A stretch of 39,377 nucleotides of DNA from a virus: positions 1 through 39,377 of IMG/VR virus record IMGVR_UViG_3300020446_000025; one strand, written 5' to 3'. Made by a program: the position numbers and the translations under genes. The notes under the pieces are model-generated. The model made no database searches and was not told where the DNA came from. It saw only the letters and a program-made list of their open reading frames with translations. This document shows, piece after piece, positions 24,691-39,377 of the stretch. The first letter of the stretch is position 1. Each line of letters starts with the position of its first letter.

Positions 24691-26163
24691 ATGACTTATA
24701 ACTTCACTACTTTAACTACGGCGCTTGATACCAAGGCTCAAGCTATTGCTGCTGATTCCAGTACAACCGCCAAGGATCTCATTTACTTAGCCAAGGCTAT
24801 CGAGGCTATCAACGCCCAAGCTGCTATGTCGGGAAGTAATAATCTGAGCGAGCTGACTGACGCGGCAGCGGCTAGGACCAATCTCGGCTTGCCGACGATT
24901 GATATCACCGGCATTACGAACGATCAGATATTGGTCTGGAACGCTGCGCTTACAAAGTTTCAAGCGGGGAGCGTTTCTAGCGCGATTGTCTCCCAATCGA
25001 ATCCAACCGGATCAGAAACAGGGGTCGCGTTGGGCGATATGTTCGTCAACTCTGACTCCGGCGAGATATTCATCGTTCATTCAATCGCGGGTGGTGTTGT
25101 CGGCTGGCTGGGGACTTTAGGAGGCACTGTCAACATCCCTCAAGGGCAGGCGATTTTCTTTAACCCAAGATCAACCAGTGGTGGTACCTCTTACCACAGC
25201 GGCACATTCACAGTCCCCGATGGCATCACTGAAATTAGTGTGGTTATGGTTGGGGGTGGCGCTGGCGGTCACTACAGCTGGGCGAGCAGCGCCGGAGGCG
25301 GCGGTGGGCTTGCTTGGGTAAACAACATACCTGTACTCGCTGGGGACACTATCGACGTTTATGCAGGCAGAGGCGGCGATGTAGGCGGTCATGGTTACGC
25401 CTCATATATAGCTAAAGGCGGCACTACGATCATAGGCGCTTATGGCGGTCAGCACAGTGGTACCACTTATAGCACCAGTTACGGTACGCCGTATGGAGGA
25501 TCAATCACCACCAACGGCACAAGCCATACGATAACGCCAGGGAACAGCAGTAGTGGTCGCGGCGGTCTTTGCTCAAGCAACGGTTACGGTGGCGGCGGTG
25601 GCGCTGGCGGCTACAGCGGAAACGGCGGTAACGGTTCCTACGGTTCTACCAACAATGGCAACAACAGCTACAACGGTACTGCAAACGGAACCGGTGGTGC
25701 TGGCGGTGGTGGCGGTGGTTACGATTCTTCCACCTACTCATTTGCCGGTGGCGGTGGTACTGGCTTGTTTGGCGAGGGTCTTAGCGGGGCGGGCATGATG
25801 ACCAACAACGGCAACTCTTTCTACTCAGACGGTCGTTACACTGGTAAGGGCGGCTCAGGTGGTGAGGATGGGTCTGACAACAACAACTCAAGTATGACCA
25901 CCCGAGGTAAATACGGCAGCTCAGCAGACACTGACACCCAGATGTCCACAATCACAGGAGGCGGACAAGGTTCTGGCAGCAGAACCACTTATCACGGCCA
26001 CGGCGGAATGTTCGGTGGCGGCGGCGGTGGCGGCGGCACAAGCGTGAGCGGTAACAGCAATTTCTGTTTAGGCGGTAACGGCGGGGTCCGAATTATCTGG
26101 GGCAAGGGAAGGGAGTTCCCGAAAACTAGAACGGGCAATGTAACTCAATACCCAGCGCCATAA
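24691..26163 (+). CDS. Glycine-rich tail fibre / adhesin
   Basis: 490 residues. The N-terminal about 130 residues are helical and beta-like (LSELTDAAAARTNLGLP, a phage fibre motif). Then comes GTFTVPDGITEISVVMVGGGAGG and about 250 residues dominated by Gly runs with Ser, Asn and Tyr (for example GGGGGAGGYSGNGG, GGAGGGGGGY). Such runs form polyglycine-II-type sandwiches in gp38-like fibre tips. It ends with GVRIIWGKGREFP, typical of these domains. It should contact the host receptor. The next gene is an assembly chaperone candidate. Confidence 0.8.
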   Translation: MTYNFTTLTTALDTKAQAIAADSSTTAKDLIYLAKAIEAINAQAAMSGSNNLSELTDAAAARTNLGLPTIDITGITNDQILVWNAALTKFQAGSVSSAIVSQSNPTGSETGVALGDMFVNSDSGEIFIVHSIAGGVVGWLGTLGGTVNIPQGQAIFFNPRSTSGGTSYHSGTFTVPDGITEISVVMVGGGAGGHYSWASSAGGGGGLAWVNNIPVLAGDTIDVYAGRGGDVGGHGYASYIAKGGTTIIGAYGGQHSGTTYSTSYGTPYGGSITTNGTSHTITPGNSSSGRGGLCSSNGYGGGGGAGGYSGNGGNGSYGSTNNGNNSYNGTANGTGGAGGGGGGYDSSTYSFAGGGGTGLFGEGLSGAGMMTNNGNSFYSDGRYTGKGGSGGEDGSDNNNSSMTTRGKYGSSADTDTQMSTITGGGQGSGSRTTYHGHGGMFGGGGGGGGTSVSGNSNFCLGGNGGVRIIWGKGREFPKTRTGNVTQYPAP

Positions 26164-26173
26164 GGAGTCAGAC

Positions 26174-26413
26174 ATGAGCGAAATAACACAAAGCGAAACA
26201 CTGGAATTAGCGATGCGCGGTCTGCGTCTGCTCAGAGATGAGGCTTTACATTCATCTGATTGGACCCAGATGGCGGATTCTCCGTTGTCTGCTGAGGACA
26301 AAACTGCATGGGCTAACTACCGTACTTATCTGCGGGATTTGCCTGCCAGCACAAACAGCGAACAGGCGCTTTCCTTTGAAGGCATCCAAAGTTTCGCTGA
26401 CTGGAGTGCGTAA
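26174..26413 (+). CDS. Tail fibre assembly chaperone-like protein
   Basis: 79 residues. RLLRDEALHSSDWTQMADSPLSAEDKTAWANYRTYLRDLP is the core of a common small phage tail-assembly chaperone family ('LR..RD.LL..SDWT...D.P....WA.YR..LRDLP'). It probably helps fold or trimerise the preceding fibre. Its TAA/ATG overlaps the collagen-like gene. Confidence 0.8.
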   Translation: MSEITQSETLELAMRGLRLLRDEALHSSDWTQMADSPLSAEDKTAWANYRTYLRDLPASTNSEQALSFEGIQSFADWSA

Positions 26414-26649
26414 TGAGCAGAGCGCGAATACTCGCTGATTTAGTGGCGGATGGCAGCGTAGGCGTGTCTGACATTACCGGCCTGACCGCGTACATCGACA
26501 GTGAGGTATCAGATGTAACTGGTCCTCAAGGTCCAGCTGGTCCGCAAGGCCCCGCTGGGGCTGCTGGCGCGCAAGGCCCTCAAGGTCCGCAAGGAACAGC
26601 TGCGACTTTCACGCTTACTGGTAACACGCTGACAATCACCACTGGTTAA
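26413..26649 (+). CDS. Short collagen-like protein
   Basis: 78 residues. After an N-terminal VADGSVGVSDITGLTAYIDSEVSDVTG segment (a common fibre module), residues 36-62 are Gly-x-y triplets (GPQGPAGPQGPAG, GAQGPQGPQG). Such repeats form triple helices in phage fibres. The C-terminal TFTLTGNTLTITTG is beta-like. Probably a fibre accessory or baseplate piece. Confidence 0.75.
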   Translation: MSRARILADLVADGSVGVSDITGLTAYIDSEVSDVTGPQGPAGPQGPAGAAGAQGPQGPQGTAATFTLTGNTLTITTG

Positions 26650-26651
26650 TT

Positions 26652-26843
26652 ATGAGTCTTGAGAAGAGAGCGCAGCCAGAGATATCCGGCTGCGGGGATT
26701 CCCTTGGGCTCGAAATAGGCTGCTTGCCCGACCACTGCGTTAGGAAGGCTGATGACGGCAAGCTGGTGATTAGTGCTACCGAGGCTGAAATGCAGCAGTT
26801 CGGCATTGTGAGGAAGGCAGATGCCAACGACACAAACGATTGA
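26652..26843 (+). CDS. Small Cys-containing hypothetical protein
   Basis: 63 residues, 2 bases after the previous stop, overlapping the next gene by 23 bases. It contains CGDSLGLEIGCLPDHC and an EAEMQQFGI end. Not recognised. Linked by position to the tail-tip module. Confidence 0.5.
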   Translation: MSLEKRAQPEISGCGDSLGLEIGCLPDHCVRKADDGKLVISATEAEMQQFGIVRKADANDTND

Positions 26844-27741
26844 CTGGTCGCAGGTACAAACTGTTACCCATAACGGCGCAGCTGTCGAAAAGGTCGATAT
26901 CGTTCATAGCCCATTAGTGCGGACGTTCACTGTAACGGTAGCAGCCTCGTCAGGCGCTAATCAGGGGTGGGGGTCCGGCAACATCTATCTCCTCGATGAT
27001 GACTGGTATCCGTCCTCCGCGGCTGGCTCATACCGATCTGGTTATGTCGATGCGGAGCCATCAACAGATCCCAATGCTGGGTTTGGCGACTCAAACATTG
27101 ACCTCGAGCTGCTGAAGGGTTGCACATACGTTTTCGATCAGTCAGACAGCTCTAACTCTGGTCATCCATTGGGCTTTGTCAGCAGTGGGGCTGGAGGCAG
27201 CGGAGCCACGGTTGTTCGCAGCGGGACCTTGAATGGTTGCACGATTACGAACCTTGGAACCCCAGGGCAGTCTGGGGCGGAAACGAGGATCGTAATACCG
27301 GCAAACTACTCAGGCTCGAGCATTTACTGGGCCTGCAACGCTCACGCGAATATGGGCGGATATGCGCCGGCAACTACAACTGCGCCGATTGAATTATGGC
27401 GGCGAGTGTGGATCTCAGATTCTCAGGTAACGCAAAACTATATACCCCCTGTGTACGGGTGGGTTTCTCAGGCAACTGGAAACGTGACAAGCAATGTAGC
27501 GACCTACTACTGGCACGTTAATTGTAACCCTCGACCGGCAAATGTTTGGCCTGGGGGCCAGCCATCAAGCGCAGACTGTCCTACTGGGTGGCAATACCAG
27601 TGCCAGTGGACGAACGTGGGTGGGTGTCCGTGGACCTGCAACTTGCAGTGCATCGAGTACACCACGGTCTGGGGCATTGTGACCGCAGGCTATTACCAAA
27701 CAACGACAACAGATACTTCGCGGTATTTGTACTTTTTCTAG
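26821..27741 (+). CDS. Cupredoxin-like, Trp/Cys-rich tail-tip protein
   Basis: 306 residues. The middle (about 92-180) reads TYVFDQSDSSNSGHPLGF ... SGSSIYWACNAHANMGG. It carries H115, C172, H175 and M178, the His/Cys/His/Met set of type-1 copper sites, with C-x2-H-x2-M spacing. I associate this 'DQSDSSNSGHPL ... CxxHxxMGG' domain with marine phage tail proteins; copper binding is not shown. The C-terminal about 100 residues are unusually rich in Trp (7) and Cys (6), for example CQWTNVGGCPWTCNLQC, and end in YLYFF. It lies between the fibre genes and the halogenase. It may be a fibre tip or a matrix-type protein. Confidence 0.6.
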   Translation: MPTTQTIDWSQVQTVTHNGAAVEKVDIVHSPLVRTFTVTVAASSGANQGWGSGNIYLLDDDWYPSSAAGSYRSGYVDAEPSTDPNAGFGDSNIDLELLKGCTYVFDQSDSSNSGHPLGFVSSGAGGSGATVVRSGTLNGCTITNLGTPGQSGAETRIVIPANYSGSSIYWACNAHANMGGYAPATTTAPIELWRRVWISDSQVTQNYIPPVYGWVSQATGNVTSNVATYYWHVNCNPRPANVWPGGQPSSADCPTGWQYQCQWTNVGGCPWTCNLQCIEYTTVWGIVTAGYYQTTTTDTSRYLYFF

Positions 27742-27750
27742 GAGCAGTGC

Positions 27751-28161
27751 ATGACGCCTCACGACCAAATGATTCATACGCCGGACGGCAGAACAGTCGT
27801 AGTGAAGGTGGGCGATGACCGGAATCTGCAAAGCAGTATCAAGCCGGAGTTCAGCTTCGATTACGACTCTCTTAACTTCAGCACCTCAACGAAAGAGAGA
27901 GTGCATGGCGGCGAGACTATTGCGCTTACTGATCTCGAGTGTGATGAGATTAAGGCGTATCTGGAGACGGTCGAAGAGGACACCGCTCTTACCGCAAAGA
28001 TACAGCGGCTCAACCAGTGTGAGAATTATCTGCGAACGACTGACTGGTATGTGATTCGTCAGCAGGAGATCGGGACTGCTATCCCAGAGGATGTCTCGAC
28101 AGAGCGCGCAGTGTGCCGTCAGTACATTAGCGATGTGAGGGATAGTGGCGTTATCCGCTAA
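27751..28161 (+). CDS. Tail-fibre-assembly-like protein
   Basis: 136 residues. The C-terminal half (LNQCENYLRTTDWYVIRQQEIG, VSTERAVCRQYISDVRDSG) matches the helical 'L..TDW..IR..E.G..IP..V...R..CR.YI' core of tail-assembly proteins. The N-terminal part is a beta-like acidic region. It overlaps the halogenase start by 17 bases. A dedicated fibre chaperone next to the halogenase is plausible. Confidence 0.65.
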   Translation: MTPHDQMIHTPDGRTVVVKVGDDRNLQSSIKPEFSFDYDSLNFSTSTKERVHGGETIALTDLECDEIKAYLETVEEDTALTAKIQRLNQCENYLRTTDWYVIRQQEIGTAIPEDVSTERAVCRQYISDVRDSGVIR

Positions 28162-29710
28162 GCCGGTAGTAGTTATTGTTGGCGGTGGTTCTTCTGGATG
28201 GTCAGCAGCAGCGTTACTTTCAGCATCACCATCTCTCGATATCAAGGTTATTGAGCCGGTACAGAATAACCCTATCGGCGTGGGGGAGAGCACTCTCCCA
28301 GTAATCAACACGTTCCACGAAGGCACAGAGCTGAAGGCGCTTAAAGGACGCAAATGGCTCGATCAGGTCGATGGGACGGCTAAGTTCTCAATACAGTTCG
28401 AGGACTTCTACAAGCTCGATGGGCGCAAGTGGGTGCATCCTTTCTTTGTTACCCCTGGCCCTGATGTCGAGGTAGTGGAAAAGCTGCAAGCCGGCAAAGC
28501 GGAGTCTGCTGCGAATCTTAGGCAGGCTAACTGGGTAGAGAAGAACCTCTTGCTCGGGAAGATGCAGGCGGAGAAGTTCTGGGAAGGGCCAGATATTTCT
28601 GCGCTGCCAACTGGCTTTCACTTCGATGCCGCCCTTTACGGGGCTTATCTTCGTGATGCGGTCCTGACAGAGAGGCCGCACGTTCAGCTGATAAAAGGCG
28701 CGGTCACAGATGTAACGCGGGACGAAAGCGACAATATTTTGACGCTTGGCCTCAATACTGGGGATCAAGTGTCTGGGGACTATTTCGTAGATTGCACCGG
28801 CTTTAAGTCGCTGCTATCGACTGGCGGCTCGATTGACTATACGGATCGCTTGTACTGCGACACCGCATTAGCAGCGCAGCTGCCTTATATCGACAAAGAA
28901 TTACAGCAGCGGAACACCACTCACTGTAAGGCGCTAAGCGCAGGCTGGGTTTGGAATGTGCCGCTGCAAAGCAGGATCGGGACTGGCTATGTGTACTCAT
29001 CGAGGCACATAAATCAGGCCGAAGCAGAGCAGGAGTTCCGCACTTACCTCGAGCAGAGGTTTGGTTATCCACCTTCCGAGGTTTCGCTTCGGCGGGTGGA
29101 TTTCACTCCAAGGAGAAAAGTAGAACCCTGGCGGCATAACGTCATCTCCATAGGGCTCAGCGGATTTTTCCTCGAGCCGCTAGAAAGCACTGGAATTGCG
29201 CTGACTCATCTGGCTATTCAGCGGCTCAGGCCGCTGTTAGAGCAGGCCATGCTGCCGCTTGATAAGCGCAGAGCAAAGTTCAACCAGTGCGTAAACGCTC
29301 GAGCAGACGAGGCGATGGAGTTCATCGACGCCCATTACGCGCTTAGCGAAAGGCAAGACTCTCAGTTCTGGCGTGATGCTAGGTCAGGGAGGCTCTCAGA
29401 GGCTCAGCAGGGCATTTTCTCTGGGTATGTGGCGAGCAACATAGAGTTTGACGATTCGACTGTCAGAGGCGCTGTAGGGACGTTCATGTTCTTTCCCGCG
29501 GGGAGCTGGGCATTAATGATGTACGGGTACGGCTTCCAGCCTAACTCGAGCGCAGCATTGACTTCATTTGTCGATGCTAGGCGCAACATTTGCGCCAGCT
29601 GCCCGCACAAGCGAACCATTCTGAATCAGGGTTATTGCGCTGAATGTAAGTGCGTTTTAGCCCTCAAAACCAAATTGAAATCAGCAACCTGCCCAATCGG
29701 GAAGTGGTAG
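28145..29710 (+). CDS. Flavin-dependent tryptophan halogenase with Cys-rich tail
   Basis: 521 residues from GTG 28145 (GAGG ribosome site, overlap with previous gene). FAD-binding GGGSSG is at 13-18. GVGEST lies at 45-50. The catalytic Lys is K80 in DGTAKFSIQF, aligned with PrnA K79. The halogenase signature is GWVWNVP (267-273; WxWxxP). EPLESTGI (344-351) carries E347 and S348, matching PrnA E346/S347. The residues needed to form and use HOCl are therefore present. The last 45 residues hold CASCPHKR, CAECKC and CPIGKW, a zinc-ribbon-like tail not typical of bacterial Trp halogenases. It needs reduced flavin from the host. The substrate is unknown; phage halogenases have been described in cyanophages. 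Confidence 0.9.
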   Translation: MALSAKPVVVIVGGGSSGWSAAALLSASPSLDIKVIEPVQNNPIGVGESTLPVINTFHEGTELKALKGRKWLDQVDGTAKFSIQFEDFYKLDGRKWVHPFFVTPGPDVEVVEKLQAGKAESAANLRQANWVEKNLLLGKMQAEKFWEGPDISALPTGFHFDAALYGAYLRDAVLTERPHVQLIKGAVTDVTRDESDNILTLGLNTGDQVSGDYFVDCTGFKSLLSTGGSIDYTDRLYCDTALAAQLPYIDKELQQRNTTHCKALSAGWVWNVPLQSRIGTGYVYSSRHINQAEAEQEFRTYLEQRFGYPPSEVSLRRVDFTPRRKVEPWRHNVISIGLSGFFLEPLESTGIALTHLAIQRLRPLLEQAMLPLDKRRAKFNQCVNARADEAMEFIDAHYALSERQDSQFWRDARSGRLSEAQQGIFSGYVASNIEFDDSTVRGAVGTFMFFPAGSWALMMYGYGFQPNSSAALTSFVDARRNICASCPHKRTILNQGYCAECKCVLALKTKLKSATCPIGKW

Positions 29711-31459: not shown

Positions 31460-31900
31460 ATGATAAGAGAAGCTAAACCTTCCGATGTGAAGGCAATAGT
31501 CGATTTAGCCGTAGAGTCAGTAAGCAGAAACCCACTTCCAGTAAACATTGATCGCGATGCGATGACACAGACCACTCGAGAAGCAATCTCGGGAGCGGCT
31601 CATTTTGTCTGGGTGTCGGAGATTGATGGAGAGGTGGTTGGCTGCGTTGGCGCTATGTCAGAAAAATCGTTTTGGTACGAAAGGCAGCAATGCAGCGTCC
31701 TTTTGTACTACGCAAGAGTCCCTCGAGATGGACTCAAACTAATTCGCAAACTAGCAGAGTGGATTCGGTCAAGACCGACGATCAAGGTGGCTGTGATGGA
31801 GTTAGAGCCAGAAGCAGATCCCCGTCTTGTGAAGTATCTCCAGCGTATCGGTTTTGCTCGTTTGTCCACTAACTGTTCATTCGTAAGGGGCCTCACATGA
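31460..31900 (+). CDS. GNAT-family acetyltransferase in virion cluster
   Basis: 146 residues. Starts MIREAKPSDVKAIVDLAVES, continues FVWVSEIDGEVVGCVGAMS, and has LIRKLAEWIRSRPTIKVAVMELEPEADPRLVKYLQRIGFARL, the usual GNAT strand-helix end. The acetyl-CoA loop is degenerate (VPRDGLKLI in place of R-G-x-G-x-A/G). GNAT-like proteins are often found next to internal virion proteins in podoviruses; the acceptor is unknown. It overlaps the next gene by 4 bases. Confidence 0.75.
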   Translation: MIREAKPSDVKAIVDLAVESVSRNPLPVNIDRDAMTQTTREAISGAAHFVWVSEIDGEVVGCVGAMSEKSFWYERQQCSVLLYYARVPRDGLKLIRKLAEWIRSRPTIKVAVMELEPEADPRLVKYLQRIGFARLSTNCSFVRGLT

Positions 31901-34148: not shown

Positions 34149-34167
34149 GTTTTGAGGATTGGTCGGA

Positions 34168-37100
34168 ATGGCTGAAAACACGCGCTCCAACTTCTTTAAC
34201 CCAGGGTTGTTTGATGATGAGTACATCGCTCCGTCTGTAACAAGGTCAAACTTTTTCTCCCCTGGCCTGTTTGATGAAGAGGAAGAGGAAGAGAAAGGTT
34301 TTGTTCTAAACACGCTCGCTGGCGCGGGTGAGCGTGGTGCAGAGCTTGTCAGTAATCTTGTTGAGTTCACCGGCAATCTGGCTGAGTCCGGCGAAAAATG
34401 GATAGCAGAAACAACTGGGATCAATCCCTACATCGAGTTTGGCGAAGATGGCGTTTCGTTTGAGTGGTATCGGGACCCGAACGAAACCAGCAATATGCTT
34501 CAGCCGTTGGCCGAAGGGATCGAAGAGCTTGGAGACTTCGGTTATGAGTCCCGCTTCACTTGGGAAAACTTTAAGGGTGAAGATGGCGAGCTGAGCTGGG
34601 ATGACTGGACCAACCCCAAAAAGCTGGCTGGGTTTGTTGTAGAGCAGGGCGTTCACTCGATACCCGATATGGTCGCAGCGGTTACCACGCTGGTCCCATA
34701 TGTCGCATCTCGAACACAAGAGATTGCCGAGCAGCGGGAGATCAACAAGGGCAAGAGCTATCGGTACGTCGATGGCGTCTACATCGAGGACCCTGATGGG
34801 CCTATCCGAGTAGACAACGATGGTGTGGTCACTGCCGGCGATTTAACCGAGGCGCTACCTACTGCGGTTTTTAATTCTGTGCTCGAGCGAATCGGTGCTC
34901 TGAGCATATTTAAGTCGGCTCCAGGGGCTACCCTAAAAAGCCGCATCTTTAAGGGCTCTACTCGAGAAGCTGGCACTGAGTTCTTACAGGAAGGTTCGGA
35001 ATACGCGGGTGAGGTTATTGGCACTCCTGTTCCGTTTGAAACTGACGTTGCGCTAGATCGCGGTATTGCTGGTGCTGTGGCAGGCGGCGGATTTGGTGGC
35101 TTGCTTGCAGGCGGTGACTCACTGCTTCGTGGCAATGAGCTTGCTGAAGCTGTCGATAAAGGCCGCAAAGAATCTCAAGCTCGCGGTGGCGATGGGCTCG
35201 ATCAAGCAGCTGCTGCGGCAGGCAATGCAGCCAGCACTCCCCTTAGCGCCACTGAGCGTCTGCGTCAACGCATGGGTATGGGCAGCACTGAGCCTGAGCA
35301 GCTCATGGACGTTGAGGATCTTGCCGGCACATCCGAAGCCAACCCCGTTCCAGTTTTCGGCGCGACTATAGAAACGCCTACTGGCACTACCCAAATCGAA
35401 ACAGATAACGCAGAAGCTACTGCGAGAGCTGCTCGCGCCCTAGCAGGCGATACTGGCACTGTTACCCTTACCCCAGAAGAAACAACCCTCGACCCCGAAT
35501 CCCTTAGCAGAGAGCAGCTCGAGGAGCTGTATCCTGCTGCCTACCAAGTAAGCCCCTACGCCCTGGGTCAGATAGATGACTTCAGAAGGCTGGGCATCCC
35601 CAACGAGCAAACCTACCAAGCCATTCTTGCGTCTAGGCGAGCTGACCGCACTGCCCCCGTACAGACCCCCGCACCGTCCTCCAGACAGCCTTTAGGCACT
35701 GACCCACGCTTGGGTCTGCGCGACAGCATATTGATGAATGAGCGCGATATACGCGCTGCTGAGGAAGCTGGGGACCAAGACGCTGTTACTGCCTTGAATG
35801 AAGATAACGTGCGATTGCGTAGCGTAGAGGCTCAACTGCGTAGAGCTAACGAGCTGGCACAGCAGGGCAATCAAGCAGCAGCTGACAGAATCATTGAGCG
35901 AGTCAGACCGATCTTGCAGGAAGAGGCAGGCCGCAGAGCTGCTTTCGATTTCACTCCCCCTCAGACAGACCCATTGCTGCTCGAGGACCAAGGCATCATC
36001 TATGGCGAGGCCCCAGAGGGCGCTCCTCAGTTGCCGTCAAGAGTCACACGCCGCAAGACCAGTGGCGAGCCATACCCCACAGCCAAGACAGCTCAGGCTG
36101 CAATGAATTTCCTGCGGAACAACGAGCCCGAATATAACTGGGCCGTGATCCGTGATGGGGACGGGTTTGCCGTCGAGGGCAATTTGCCGGAAGGCCCTGG
36201 GGCTCAAGTTATCAACGAGGTTACTCCTGATGCCGTAGTAGAGCGCGGTCAACAAAGCCAGCGGCAGCGGCTACAGGACCTTCAATTTGAAGAAGAGGTC
36301 GTACAGCCAGAGCAGGCAATCGAGCAAGAGCGGCAAGAAGATCAAGTTTCTATCGGGGACGTTATTGCTCAGTTTGAAGCGTCTGTAGATGAAGAGGCTC
36401 AGAAGCTAGACGAGCTGCGCGCCCAGAGAGATGAGATGACCGCGCGGGATCTCAAGGGCGTAAACGCGCCGATTCCCGCATCAACGATTAAAGATACTGA
36501 TGACCTGCTTCTGACCATTGTGAAGCTGGGCGGGATCAACATCGAGGATGCGAAGAGCAACGATTTCGATACTAAGCGAGATGCGCCCAAGCCTTACAGT
36601 GTCGGCAGGTACGCGCTATTCAAGCGTAACGGGAAAACCTTTGACGATCTCCGTGAGAGCTTACAGGAGCTGGGCTGGTATATACCGGAAGATCCGAATC
36701 AGCCCCCGCAGCTTGGTGCTAACGATGTTATGGAGGACATTCGTGACGCTATCAGGTCAACCAGCGAGGGCAGCTATGTTTATAAGGCAGACAAAGAAGG
36801 TGACATAGCAGGCTTAGATCGAGATATAGATCTACAGCAGGAGCTTATTGACGAGTTCGAGTACCTGCTAGAATCCTACAAAACACAAATCAACCCCGAA
36901 GAGGCTGGTCGCAATGACCTCAACATCTACGATGCGGCTCAATTCTTCGAGGGCGTAACAGAGGAGATCTACAGTGGTCCAGAACAGATACCCGCGCGAA
37001 GGGCTGAGGCAACTACAGGAGATGTACCAGCGGTTGTCGCCGGAGGAGATCGCGCAGCTGAGGGAGACCCCAGAGGGGGTCAGCGAAGAGATCAAGAAAT

Positions 37101-39377
37101 TGCAGAAGATCGCAGCACAGAGAGTGTTGCAGAGGCGAGGGATAACCTTCCCCCAGATGTAACAACAGACACGACCACCGAAGCGGAGCCACAAGGCTCC
37201 GTTTCTGCTTCTGGGGTCCCAGAATTTGAGCTTGGCACTTATACGGAAAGAGACATTGCTACGCTCGAGGATAGGGATCTCGAGAGCATGGAGGCTCGCG
37301 AGCAGATAGACCGTGAGCGCAATGAGTTTGCGCTGGATGCTGGTGAATCAACCCTAGCGGCTGCTACGGAAAGACTGGGGCAGACCCGCGGCGGGGATAT
37401 GTTTGGCTTCGATGAGGTCCAGCCCCGATCCAACAAGGATTACGGGTTCGAGAATAGACGCCGGCAGATTAACTCGAAGCTCAATCAAACAAGCGAAGCA
37501 GATTTAGATCTGTTCTTGGAAGATATCGGTGCTCAAAAGAAAGGCACGAAACTCGAGAAGATTGAGCGGCTTACAGAGGCTTTTGAGGCTCAGTACGTTT
37601 TCGAGAACACCGGACCCTATGAGAGTGTTGTTCAAATAGAGCAGGCAATCCAAGACGGCGTAATCGACCGAGAGGACGCTGCTCGCTTTGCCAGAGTCTT
37701 GGCCACCTCTCAAAACGCTATGCCTTCCTCAACCAGTGCTAAGAGCAACGCCGGAGACATAGCCACACTTGCCGCGCGTATGTCTGGTAGCGAGAGAGTT
37801 CCCTACCGCACTGAAGCGGAAGAAGCGGCTTTCGAGGAATCAAACGCACCTGAGAGGCAGCGCCTGCAAGAGCAGCAGGAACAGCAAGAAGCTGAGAGAC
37901 AGGAAACAAGCGAGTGGTTTGACAACAAAGAAAACAGGGATCGGTTTATTGATTTCTGGGAAAAGGCTACTCCATCCACAAGGCGTGATGTCCTCGAGCG
38001 AGTAGGCATGAACGCCCTGGGCGACACTGACAAGAAGATCGCTCGGCGCATAAACGCAGAGACCCCATCTAAGCTGCCCAATGCGGTAAATAACCTCCTT
38101 GTTCCGTGGGCTGCACAAAACTTTGATAGCTACTTAGAGGAGTACAAAAACAACAAGGACAACTGGGATGCGGTCGAGTGGGCTCAATATCTTGATCGCC
38201 CACAAGAGGAAATAGAGCGGCTCATCCAAGATCGAGAAATCAGGGATCTCGCGCTTCTCCAAGCTGAGCAGCCAAGCAATGCGCCAGAGCACCGAAATGC
38301 AGACACTGGGGTAAATGAAGCGCAGCTCGCGGAGCTGGTGGAAACTCTCGGCAGATACCGTACAGCAGAAGATACGCTTGCAGACCCAGAGCGCGTGACT
38401 CGAGTGCTGCAAGCGCCGGCAGAAAAAGATCGTGTTCGGCTAAAAGATAAGGTCAACATTCTCACGGGAAGCCAAGGGTTTCTGAGCCCAGAGCAAGCTG
38501 AAGCTCGAGTGCAAACGTGGCGGGACAATGCTCGAGGCCAGTTCCGAGTTCCAGAAAAGAGAGCAATAAACGACCGACTTGTTGTGCTTTCCCTCTTTGA
38601 CCTAACGGGATCATGGTCAGATCCGTGGTCAGAAGCCGGATATGAGGTTCATACCTTCGATATCCAAGACAACCCCTATGTAGGCGACATAACCAACTTC
38701 GGTACAGATTTCTTCCAGCAGCTGTTCAATATGTTCGACGGCAAAGAAATCCACGCGATTTTGGCTGCTTGCCCCTGCACTGATTTCGCAAGCAGCGGAT
38801 CAAGGCACTTCTCCGCGAAAGATAAAGACGGGCGCACTTACTCAAGCATACAGCTGGTGCAAGCCACCCTCGATGTTATCGAATACTTCAAGCCATCTGT
38901 CTGGGCGATAGAGAATCCAGTGGGTCGCATCGAGAAGATGAACGGCTTGCCGCCCTGGTCACTTTCTTTTGATCCGTACCACTTTGGCGAGGACTACACA
39001 AAGAAAACGCTTCTTTGGGGCCGCATGAACGCAGACCTGCCTATTGCGCCAACTGAGCCTACTGCCGGCTCCAAGATGCACAGTCAGTTCGGCGGCAGCT
39101 CGATAGAGACAAAGAACGCGAGAAGCGAAACCCCAGAAGGTTTTGCTTATGCCTTCTTCAACGCAAACAACGCTATCGACCACCCGATTATGACCATGCA
39201 GAACCGCTACGACATGGTTGATCCAGATGCGATTCGCGAAGCTGTTGAAGCGGGAATGTCGTTCTCCGACATAGACAACATTGTCATGGACCCTTACTAC
39301 ATTTCCCTCGACTATGAGGCTGCTGCGGCGGATCTGAGAGAGGCTGTTAAGGAGCTTCGAGAGGATCAGGAAGGGGG
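34168..39377 (+). CDS. Giant polyvalent-type protein with C5-methyltransferase-like domain, partial
   Basis: At least 1,736 codons from ATG 34168; no stop before the window edge. The N-terminus has two TRSNFF(N/S)PGLFD(D/E)E copies (residues 5-18, 25-38). A Gly-rich hydrophobic segment (GIAGAVAGGGFGGLLAGG) is near 295-315. Around 633-680 is a beta-rich YPTAKTAQAAM...GFAVEG unit, and about 780-875 an IVKLGGINIEDAKS/DVMEDIRDAI unit, like domains of polyvalent proteins. A SAP-like KGTKLEKIERL lies near 1131. Residues about 1472-1640 form a cytosine-methyltransferase-like domain: SLFDLTGSWSD (motif I; Leu replaces usual Gly), ACPCTDF (C1537, motif IV) and AIENPVG (motif VI). Polyvalent proteins often travel with the virion and act in the new host. 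Confidence 0.75.
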   Translation, partial: MAENTRSNFFNPGLFDDEYIAPSVTRSNFFSPGLFDEEEEEEKGFVLNTLAGAGERGAELVSNLVEFTGNLAESGEKWIAETTGINPYIEFGEDGVSFEWYRDPNETSNMLQPLAEGIEELGDFGYESRFTWENFKGEDGELSWDDWTNPKKLAGFVVEQGVHSIPDMVAAVTTLVPYVASRTQEIAEQREINKGKSYRYVDGVYIEDPDGPIRVDNDGVVTAGDLTEALPTAVFNSVLERIGALSIFKSAPGATLKSRIFKGSTREAGTEFLQEGSEYAGEVIGTPVPFETDVALDRGIAGAVAGGGFGGLLAGGDSLLRGNELAEAVDKGRKESQARGGDGLDQAAAAAGNAASTPLSATERLRQRMGMGSTEPEQLMDVEDLAGTSEANPVPVFGATIETPTGTTQIETDNAEATARAARALAGDTGTVTLTPEETTLDPESLSREQLEELYPAAYQVSPYALGQIDDFRRLGIPNEQTYQAILASRRADRTAPVQTPAPSSRQPLGTDPRLGLRDSILMNERDIRAAEEAGDQDAVTALNEDNVRLRSVEAQLRRANELAQQGNQAAADRIIERVRPILQEEAGRRAAFDFTPPQTDPLLLEDQGIIYGEAPEGAPQLPSRVTRRKTSGEPYPTAKTAQAAMNFLRNNEPEYNWAVIRDGDGFAVEGNLPEGPGAQVINEVTPDAVVERGQQSQRQRLQDLQFEEEVVQPEQAIEQERQEDQVSIGDVIAQFEASVDEEAQKLDELRAQRDEMTARDLKGVNAPIPASTIKDTDDLLLTIVKLGGINIEDAKSNDFDTKRDAPKPYSVGRYALFKRNGKTFDDLRESLQELGWYIPEDPNQPPQLGANDVMEDIRDAIRSTSEGSYVYKADKEGDIAGLDRDIDLQQELIDEFEYLLESYKTQINPEEAGRNDLNIYDAAQFFEGVTEEIYSGPEQIPARRAEATTGDVPAVVAGGDRAAEGDPRGGQRRDQEIAEDRSTESVAEARDNLPPDVTTDTTTEAEPQGSVSASGVPEFELGTYTERDIATLEDRDLESMEAREQIDRERNEFALDAGESTLAAATERLGQTRGGDMFGFDEVQPRSNKDYGFENRRRQINSKLNQTSEADLDLFLEDIGAQKKGTKLEKIERLTEAFEAQYVFENTGPYESVVQIEQAIQDGVIDREDAARFARVLATSQNAMPSSTSAKSNAGDIATLAARMSGSERVPYRTEAEEAAFEESNAPERQRLQEQQEQQEAERQETSEWFDNKENRDRFIDFWEKATPSTRRDVLERVGMNALGDTDKKIARRINAETPSKLPNAVNNLLVPWAAQNFDSYLEEYKNNKDNWDAVEWAQYLDRPQEEIERLIQDREIRDLALLQAEQPSNAPEHRNADTGVNEAQLAELVETLGRYRTAEDTLADPERVTRVLQAPAEKDRVRLKDKVNILTGSQGFLSPEQAEARVQTWRDNARGQFRVPEKRAINDRLVVLSLFDLTGSWSDPWSEAGYEVHTFDIQDNPYVGDITNFGTDFFQQLFNMFDGKEIHAILAACPCTDFASSGSRHFSAKDKDGRTYSSIQLVQATLDVIEYFKPSVWAIENPVGRIEKMNGLPPWSLSFDPYHFGEDYTKKTLLWGRMNADLPIAPTEPTAGSKMHSQFGGSSIETKNARSETPEGFAYAFFNANNAIDHPIMTMQNRYDMVDPDAIREAVEAGMSFSDIDNIVMDPYYISLDYEAAAADLREAVKELREDQEG

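Follow-up and report, generated by a model that had tools for sequence, protein, structure and literature searches.

Among viral flavin-dependent halogenases (FDHs), VirX1 (6QGM, from cyanophage Syn10) has been crystallised and characterised, and a wide range of small aromatic compounds are halogenated by it in vitro (PMC8407142). The table in that review lists no native product for it. Cyanophage halogenases have been listed among auxiliary metabolic genes (PMC10452541) and viewed as part of a cluster making or decorating metabolites or the capsule (PMC7824862). Other FDHs modify ribosomally made polypeptides: ChlH, of the chlorolassin pathway, acts on peptidyl Trp and also on some proteins (PMC12518702), and a brominase of a proteusin, another ribosomally synthesised and post-translationally modified peptide (RiPP), likewise acts on peptidyl Trp (PMC10858898). 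In addition, QhpG, a flavoprotein resembling FAD-dependent halogenases, dihydroxylates protein Trp (PMC7876137). In full-text searches of open-access literature, with hits judged by titles and abstracts, we found no link between a halogenase and a virion or tail protein. Here, we describe an FDH gene in a marine-type bacterial virus whose linear record comprises 39,377 b (hereafter, the window, meaning the whole record, a contig that stops short at the 3' end), together with the tail genes that accompany it and its relatives.

Results

An Intact FDH Gene with a C-Terminal Cys Ribbon

The gene at 28145-29710 (+ strand) starts with GTG, behind the ribosome-binding-like sequence GAGGGATA (GAGG-type), and translates into 521 residues with zero internal stops. 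Its product matches the Pfam profile PF04820 (Trp_halogenase) with an E-value of 7e-94 (315.6 bits, for a curated cut-off of 21) and phrog_2928 (tryptophan halogenase) at 1.5e-102, and 30 distinct halogenase sequences in the PDB match it, the best being VirX1 (2.7e-62). The AlphaFold2 model, with a pLDDT of 87 and a pTM of 0.85, strengthens this assignment, since its best Foldseek matches are all FDHs (E ~1e-39, TM ~0.75), with Xcc4156 (6Y1W) as top match and BrvH (6FRL) within the top 50.

The signature that PrnA, RebH, Thal and BorH (PF04820) share with this protein, along with the overall fold, is present in full. The GxGxxG element is the FAD-binding motif GGGSSG (residues 13-18, 28181..28198, +), and the WxWxIP element reads GWVWNVP (residues 267-273, 28943..28963, +). 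K80 (28382..28384, +) aligns with the catalytic Lys of VirX1, while E347 and S348 (29183..29188, +), which sit inside FLEPLESTG, align with the Glu/Ser of FDHs, E347 corresponding to the catalytic Glu of VirX1. GGG, K80, E347 and S348 are invariant across 20 viral relatives. The preliminary description of this DNA had given exactly these coordinates and motifs and read them as an intact FAD-dependent halogenase, which the profile, VirX1 and conservation results bear out. By sequence, 28145-29710 is an intact FDH gene, with catalysis predicted from its motifs and fold.

As for the class of substrate, Tyr-Tyr, Glu and Phe-Trp-x-Asn hold free Trp in the PrnA/RebH structures. When the protein is aligned with BorH (6ul2), DESTYYGRFEaEFRnFWTNGSYY of BorH faces DSTVRGAVG-TFM-FFPAGSWA of the window, so that VR..-..FF.A stands at the position of YY..E..FW.N, the substrate-holding motif of the PrnA/RebH/Thal/BorH type. 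Because the residues that hold free Trp are absent, “tryptophan halogenase” is here the name of a family rather than a substrate assignment; the enzyme does not look like a free-tryptophan halogenase, and the label used in the preliminary description is not supported in its strict sense. The gene also lies outside any pigment or antibiotic cluster, unlike those of PrnA, RebH, Thal and BorH. A PA.SW stretch similar to that of the window FDH occurs in the substrate lid of BrvH. BrvH and Xcc4156 are, however, cellular enzymes, and we know of no link between FDHs of their type and phage tails.

The protein ends in a Cys ribbon (residues 475-521, 29567..29707, +) of the form CASCP..CAECKC..KTKLKSATCPIGKW, whose last stretch reads CPIGKW. 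This module, which was absent from the preliminary description, matches phrog_13558 (1.3e-11); its similarity to DUF6171 (8.5e-5, 23.3 bits) lies under the Pfam cut-off of 27. We found it fused to only two further FDHs (in contigs L093 and L174). The ribbon also exists alone, as proteins of 50-70 aa in other phages, sometimes in tail-fibre regions. One such gene directly follows Gly-rich fibre proteins in Roseobacter phage CRP-143 (L007:7974-8126), and another directly precedes a 2OG-Fe(II) oxygenase in the fibre block of metaG-MbCM1 (L008:5944-6123). We rejected the latter as a case of a 2OG oxygenase with a fused ribbon, the ribbon being encoded there by a small ORF of its own, which precedes the 2OG gene.

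The FDH Gene Lies in a Tail-Fibre Module

The FDH start overlaps by 17 nt the gene at 27751..28161 (+), which encodes a putative chaperone of 136 aa similar to the tail fiber assembly (Tfa) family (phrog_4912, 3.4e-5; also phrog_27919), without a Pfam match. The placement in a tail-fibre module and the overlap with a chaperone-like gene, both claimed earlier, are thus confirmed. The gene before the chaperone (26821..27741, +), not mentioned in the preliminary description, encodes a tail-tip protein of 306 aa, which we propose as the substrate. It matches tail fiber phrogs 30742 and 693, is 44% identical to the tip of L093, and contains 13 W, 18 Y and 9 C, mostly in its C-terminal third. Within this Trp/Tyr/Cys-rich C-terminal region (residues ~190-306, 27388..27738, +), W193, W231, W243, W263, W271 and W284, as well as Cys 235/253/261/269/273/277, are common to the L093 tip. 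The structure model of the tip was not used, because its mean pLDDT was 50.6, it had no significant fold match and its C terminus was not confidently modelled. Ahead of the aromatic-rich region lies a cupredoxin-like domain (GHPLGF...YWACNAHANMGG; 27103-27381, tip residues ~95-187), a module that occurs very frequently in the tail fibres of marine phages and in cyanophage gp9-type connectors.

Further upstream are a collagen-like fibre protein of 78 aa ending in ATFTLTGNTLTITTG (26413..26649, +; PF01391 Collagen, 1.7e-5, below the cut-off), a Phage_tail_APC tail assembly chaperone of 79 aa (26174..26413, +; PF16778, 1e-14) and a Gly-rich tail-fibre-like protein of 490 aa (24691..26163, +; phrog_4474, 2e-37; weak Gly_rich_2), which has a counterpart in L093. 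The C-terminal motif of the collagen-like protein recurs upstream of the tip in L093, L174, L177, L178, L180 and L181.

Terminase, head-tail adaptor and major head protein were found among the window proteins scanned, with no sheath, which suggests a podovirus-like phage. We did not name a host, since the nearest capsid, that of a Pseudoalteromonas phage, is only 49.5% identical and too distant for this purpose. We recognised no flavin reductase among those ORFs of the window that were searched, as expected for phage FDHs. The search for a biosynthetic cluster or partner enzyme near the FDH in the window found none except a GNAT acetyltransferase-like gene (phrog_1249; 31460-31900, +), which lies in the virion block three genes past the FDH and is possibly another protein-modifying enzyme. 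The same block holds a giant ORF (34159-39375, +; 1739 aa) that is open at the contig end and has no Pfam match at E 0.01; the PCTDFASSG and ENPVGR stretches in its C-terminal part look like a cytosine-methyltransferase-like domain.

Tip, Chaperone and FDH Recur as a Cassette

Single-protein scans of IMG/VR and genome contigs returned no FDH relatives; alignment queries did find them. The nearest ones (L093, L013 and L014), 38-42% identical to the window FDH, are each encoded in the order tip, chaperone, FDH. We searched IMG/VR with the chaperone alone, which involves no selection for halogenases beyond the seeds. The search yielded 15 non-redundant close homologues of the chaperone, with an FDH directly downstream in 10, a 2OG-Fe(II) oxygenase in two and neither in three. 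Four of the 10 FDH cases are the search seeds themselves (the window, L093, L013 and L014), leaving six independent finds, among which L177, L180 and L181 are close to one another. By comparison, none of 83 distant chaperone homologues is followed by either enzyme (Fisher 5.6e-13, for loci that are not phylogenetically independent). All 10 sampled members of the FDH clade sit directly behind a chaperone orthologue and a small Trp/Tyr-rich tip.

The two 2OG-Fe(II) oxygenases (L176:5311-5940 and L341:5302-5994) fill the slot of the FDH directly after the same chaperone. The first matches PF13640 (2e-11) and phrog_61 (4e-37), and the second was assigned by similarity. Although unrelated to FDHs in family and chemistry, these enzymes also perform oxidative tailoring, which suggests that the chemistry used to tailor the tip is interchangeable.

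The proteins encoded before the chaperone average 5.1% W and 9.3% Y in the close set vs. 1.3% W and 3.5% Y in the distant set. The tip of L180 is extreme, with 14 W and 23 Y in 157 aa and WVDTSYWAYYY at its end, and stretches like ELWRRVW- and DTSYWxYFY are common to the tips. In part of the clade, the genes upstream of the tip, encoding collagen-like or other fibre proteins, end in an ATFxxxGxTLTI motif; in the FDH-less group, they have S74-like fibre ends. Three contigs (L182-L184) combine an aromatic-rich tip and its cognate chaperone with no FDH within the stretch read. An enrichment in Trp specific to FDH-linked close tips was rejected, the difference from FDH-less close tips being not significant (p=0.13, n=9 and 4). 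Since the latter are also aromatic-rich, this property may serve receptor binding alone; many flanks are fragments, which makes the absence of an enzyme weak evidence. In RiPP-type systems, a ribosomal substrate is encoded beside its enzyme; the conserved neighbour of the FDH is Trp/Tyr-rich and may be such a substrate.

The FDH and Its Chaperone Are Co-Inherited on Different Phage Backbones

The 10 cassette enzymes group into a single clade (support 100/100) in a tree built from 44 FDHs. VirX1-like viral FDHs make up a neighbouring clade (100/99), outside of which the window FDH falls. Distances between FDHs correlate with those between their chaperones (Mantel r=0.86, p=0.0001), and the cassette is found on different backbones, marked by a tail sheath together with a myovirus-type portal in L014, by an internal virion protein in L181 and by a podovirus-like head-tail adaptor in the window. 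The dN/dS of the FDH is ~0.08-0.22 between diverged relatives, for some of which dS is saturated, and 0.39 for the near-identical pair L177/L180, from which we conclude that the gene is under purifying selection. In this pair, the FDH is 97% identical and the chaperone 100%, the tip only 69%. This is an apparent tip swap by recombination, as expected for a host-recognition part that is swapped and stays aromatic-rich.

Other Phage Halogenases Have Different Neighbours

Matches to FDHs occur in 80 of 50,697 phage records, mostly those of cyanomyoviruses, and alignment scans of IMG/VR gave at least 589 and at least 579 confirmed FDH relatives. The earlier statement that halogenases are rare in phages must therefore be qualified; with at least 80 phage records, more than 570 IMG/VR contigs and a characterised VirX1, they are not a novelty.

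VirX1 shares the phage FDH fold and catalytic residues with the window FDH, and its gene likewise follows tail-fibre genes (phrog_863) and one small gene. It differs in being only ~31-33% identical, in belonging to a separate clade, in lacking the Cys ribbon and in its neighbourhood, in which the fibres are Trp-poor and phrog_1787, without detectable homology to the window's chaperone, takes the place of the latter. For want of such homology, the small gene before cyanophage FDHs was rejected as a chaperone. Accordingly, in 99 marine viral FDH loci, what we counted upstream in 40 and found absent in 59 is a small tail-module gene rather than a chaperone. A rule by which all viral FDHs follow Trp-rich proteins was also rejected, offset -1 being only mildly enriched and VirX1-type fibres Trp-poor.

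In some marine viral contigs (L050, L059, L091 and L026), a single locus contains three to four halogenase-like genes that differ from one another. Two human faecal “Bacteriophage sp.” records, MT837902.1 (L004) and MT835646.1 (L006), were rejected as sources of phage FDHs. Their surrounding ORFs are bacterial-looking, including glycosidase, TonB-receptor-like and transporter genes, and the records are probably mislabelled fragments of bacterial chromosomes. Their FDHs were kept solely as a bacterial outgroup.

Discussion

We propose that the adjacent tail tip is the substrate of the FDH, which would halogenate its Trp (or Tyr) while the tip is being assembled, a reading to which we give a probability of about one half. 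We infer the scheme that follows, from activity, substrate and timing to the role of the ribbon and the benefit for the phage, from the intact genes, their linkage and their co-inheritance. The enzyme would be a two-component FDH of the phage type related to VirX1. FADH2 would be supplied by a host flavin reductase, and the flavin hydroperoxide would react with chloride or bromide to give HOX. The HOX would travel to K80, which together with E347 would direct halogenation of an aromatic ring. The acceptor would be a protein-bound Trp (less likely Tyr) in the aromatic-rich tip encoded two genes upstream, the nascent tip being presented either before it folds or in complex with the small chaperone whose gene lies between the two. 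The Cys ribbon may help the FDH to dock, and halogenated aromatics would alter receptor binding by the tip or its stability. Such a step is chemically plausible given that ChlH and other FDHs act on peptides and QhpG acts on protein Trp. ChlH and the proteusin brominase resemble the window FDH in the task proposed for it, i.e., the modification of Trp in a ribosomal polypeptide encoded nearby, although their substrates are RiPP precursors and not virion proteins.

That the FDH clade always adjoins an aromatic-rich tip suggests that the enzyme probably decorates the virus's own attachment tip. The preliminary description had argued from co-expression with late structural genes for a target in the virion or the host envelope. 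The tip-chaperone synteny, conserved across different phages, is a stronger argument and makes a virion component the probable target, although genes may also stay neighbours because they travel together in a mobile tail module. Since VirX1-type fibres are Trp-poor, the proposal is safest for the window's own clade.

The FDH might instead be an auxiliary metabolic enzyme, acting on a small aromatic (indole, phenol or a host metabolite) and merely carried in a late tail operon, or acting on a natural product or a polysaccharide of the host surface. Cyanophage halogenases are generally viewed in this way (PMC10452541, PMC7824862), the breadth of small aromatics accepted by VirX1 in vitro (PMC8407142) agrees with it, and many marine viral FDHs are arrayed with 2OG oxygenases and further enzymes rather than beside a fibre, the small upstream gene being absent from 59 of the 99 loci. 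For the window's clade, which is tied to a single pair of tip and chaperone, and in a window whose only candidate partner enzyme is the GNAT acetyltransferase-like protein, we nevertheless consider it rather unlikely. Hydroxylation or cross-linking of tip Trp/Tyr by an enzyme of the FDH family would fit both the precedent of QhpG, a halogenase-like modifier of peptidyl Trp (PMC7876137), and the occupation of the same slot by 2OG enzymes, yet the halogenation signature (K80, E347/S348 and the WxWxIP-type motif) is kept clade-wide, which makes this alternative improbable. Still less probable is that the FDH alters some component of the host surface, a change that might, for instance, block superinfection. 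A presumed late-operon position would time such an activity, but the protein, which begins with its FAD-binding strand, has no apparent secretion signal or membrane segment, and both the replacement by 2OG oxygenases and the linkage to the chaperone point to a co-produced protein target. Least probable of all is an inactive FDH-fold protein that swapped tail modules carry along for structural reasons or by chance, since, even though tail modules do recombine (as in L177/L180), the gene is under purifying selection, has intact catalytic residues clade-wide and is retained on different backbones.

More broadly, and somewhat more tentatively than for the window itself, we suggest that phages may halogenate their own receptor-binding tips by means of a dedicated tip-chaperone-FDH cassette in which 2OG-Fe(II) oxygenases are interchangeable with the FDH. 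Phage halogenases tend to be classed as auxiliary metabolic genes without a known substrate, and the conserved cassette, by pointing to a specific neighbouring protein, makes their role testable by mass spectrometry. If the proposal is true, these FDHs would be protein halogenases that act with the help of a chaperone and would be useful in biotechnology, and the cassette would also suggest a native role for VirX1 and other marine phage halogenases. Virions with halogenated aromatic residues would then represent a new way to diversify host recognition.
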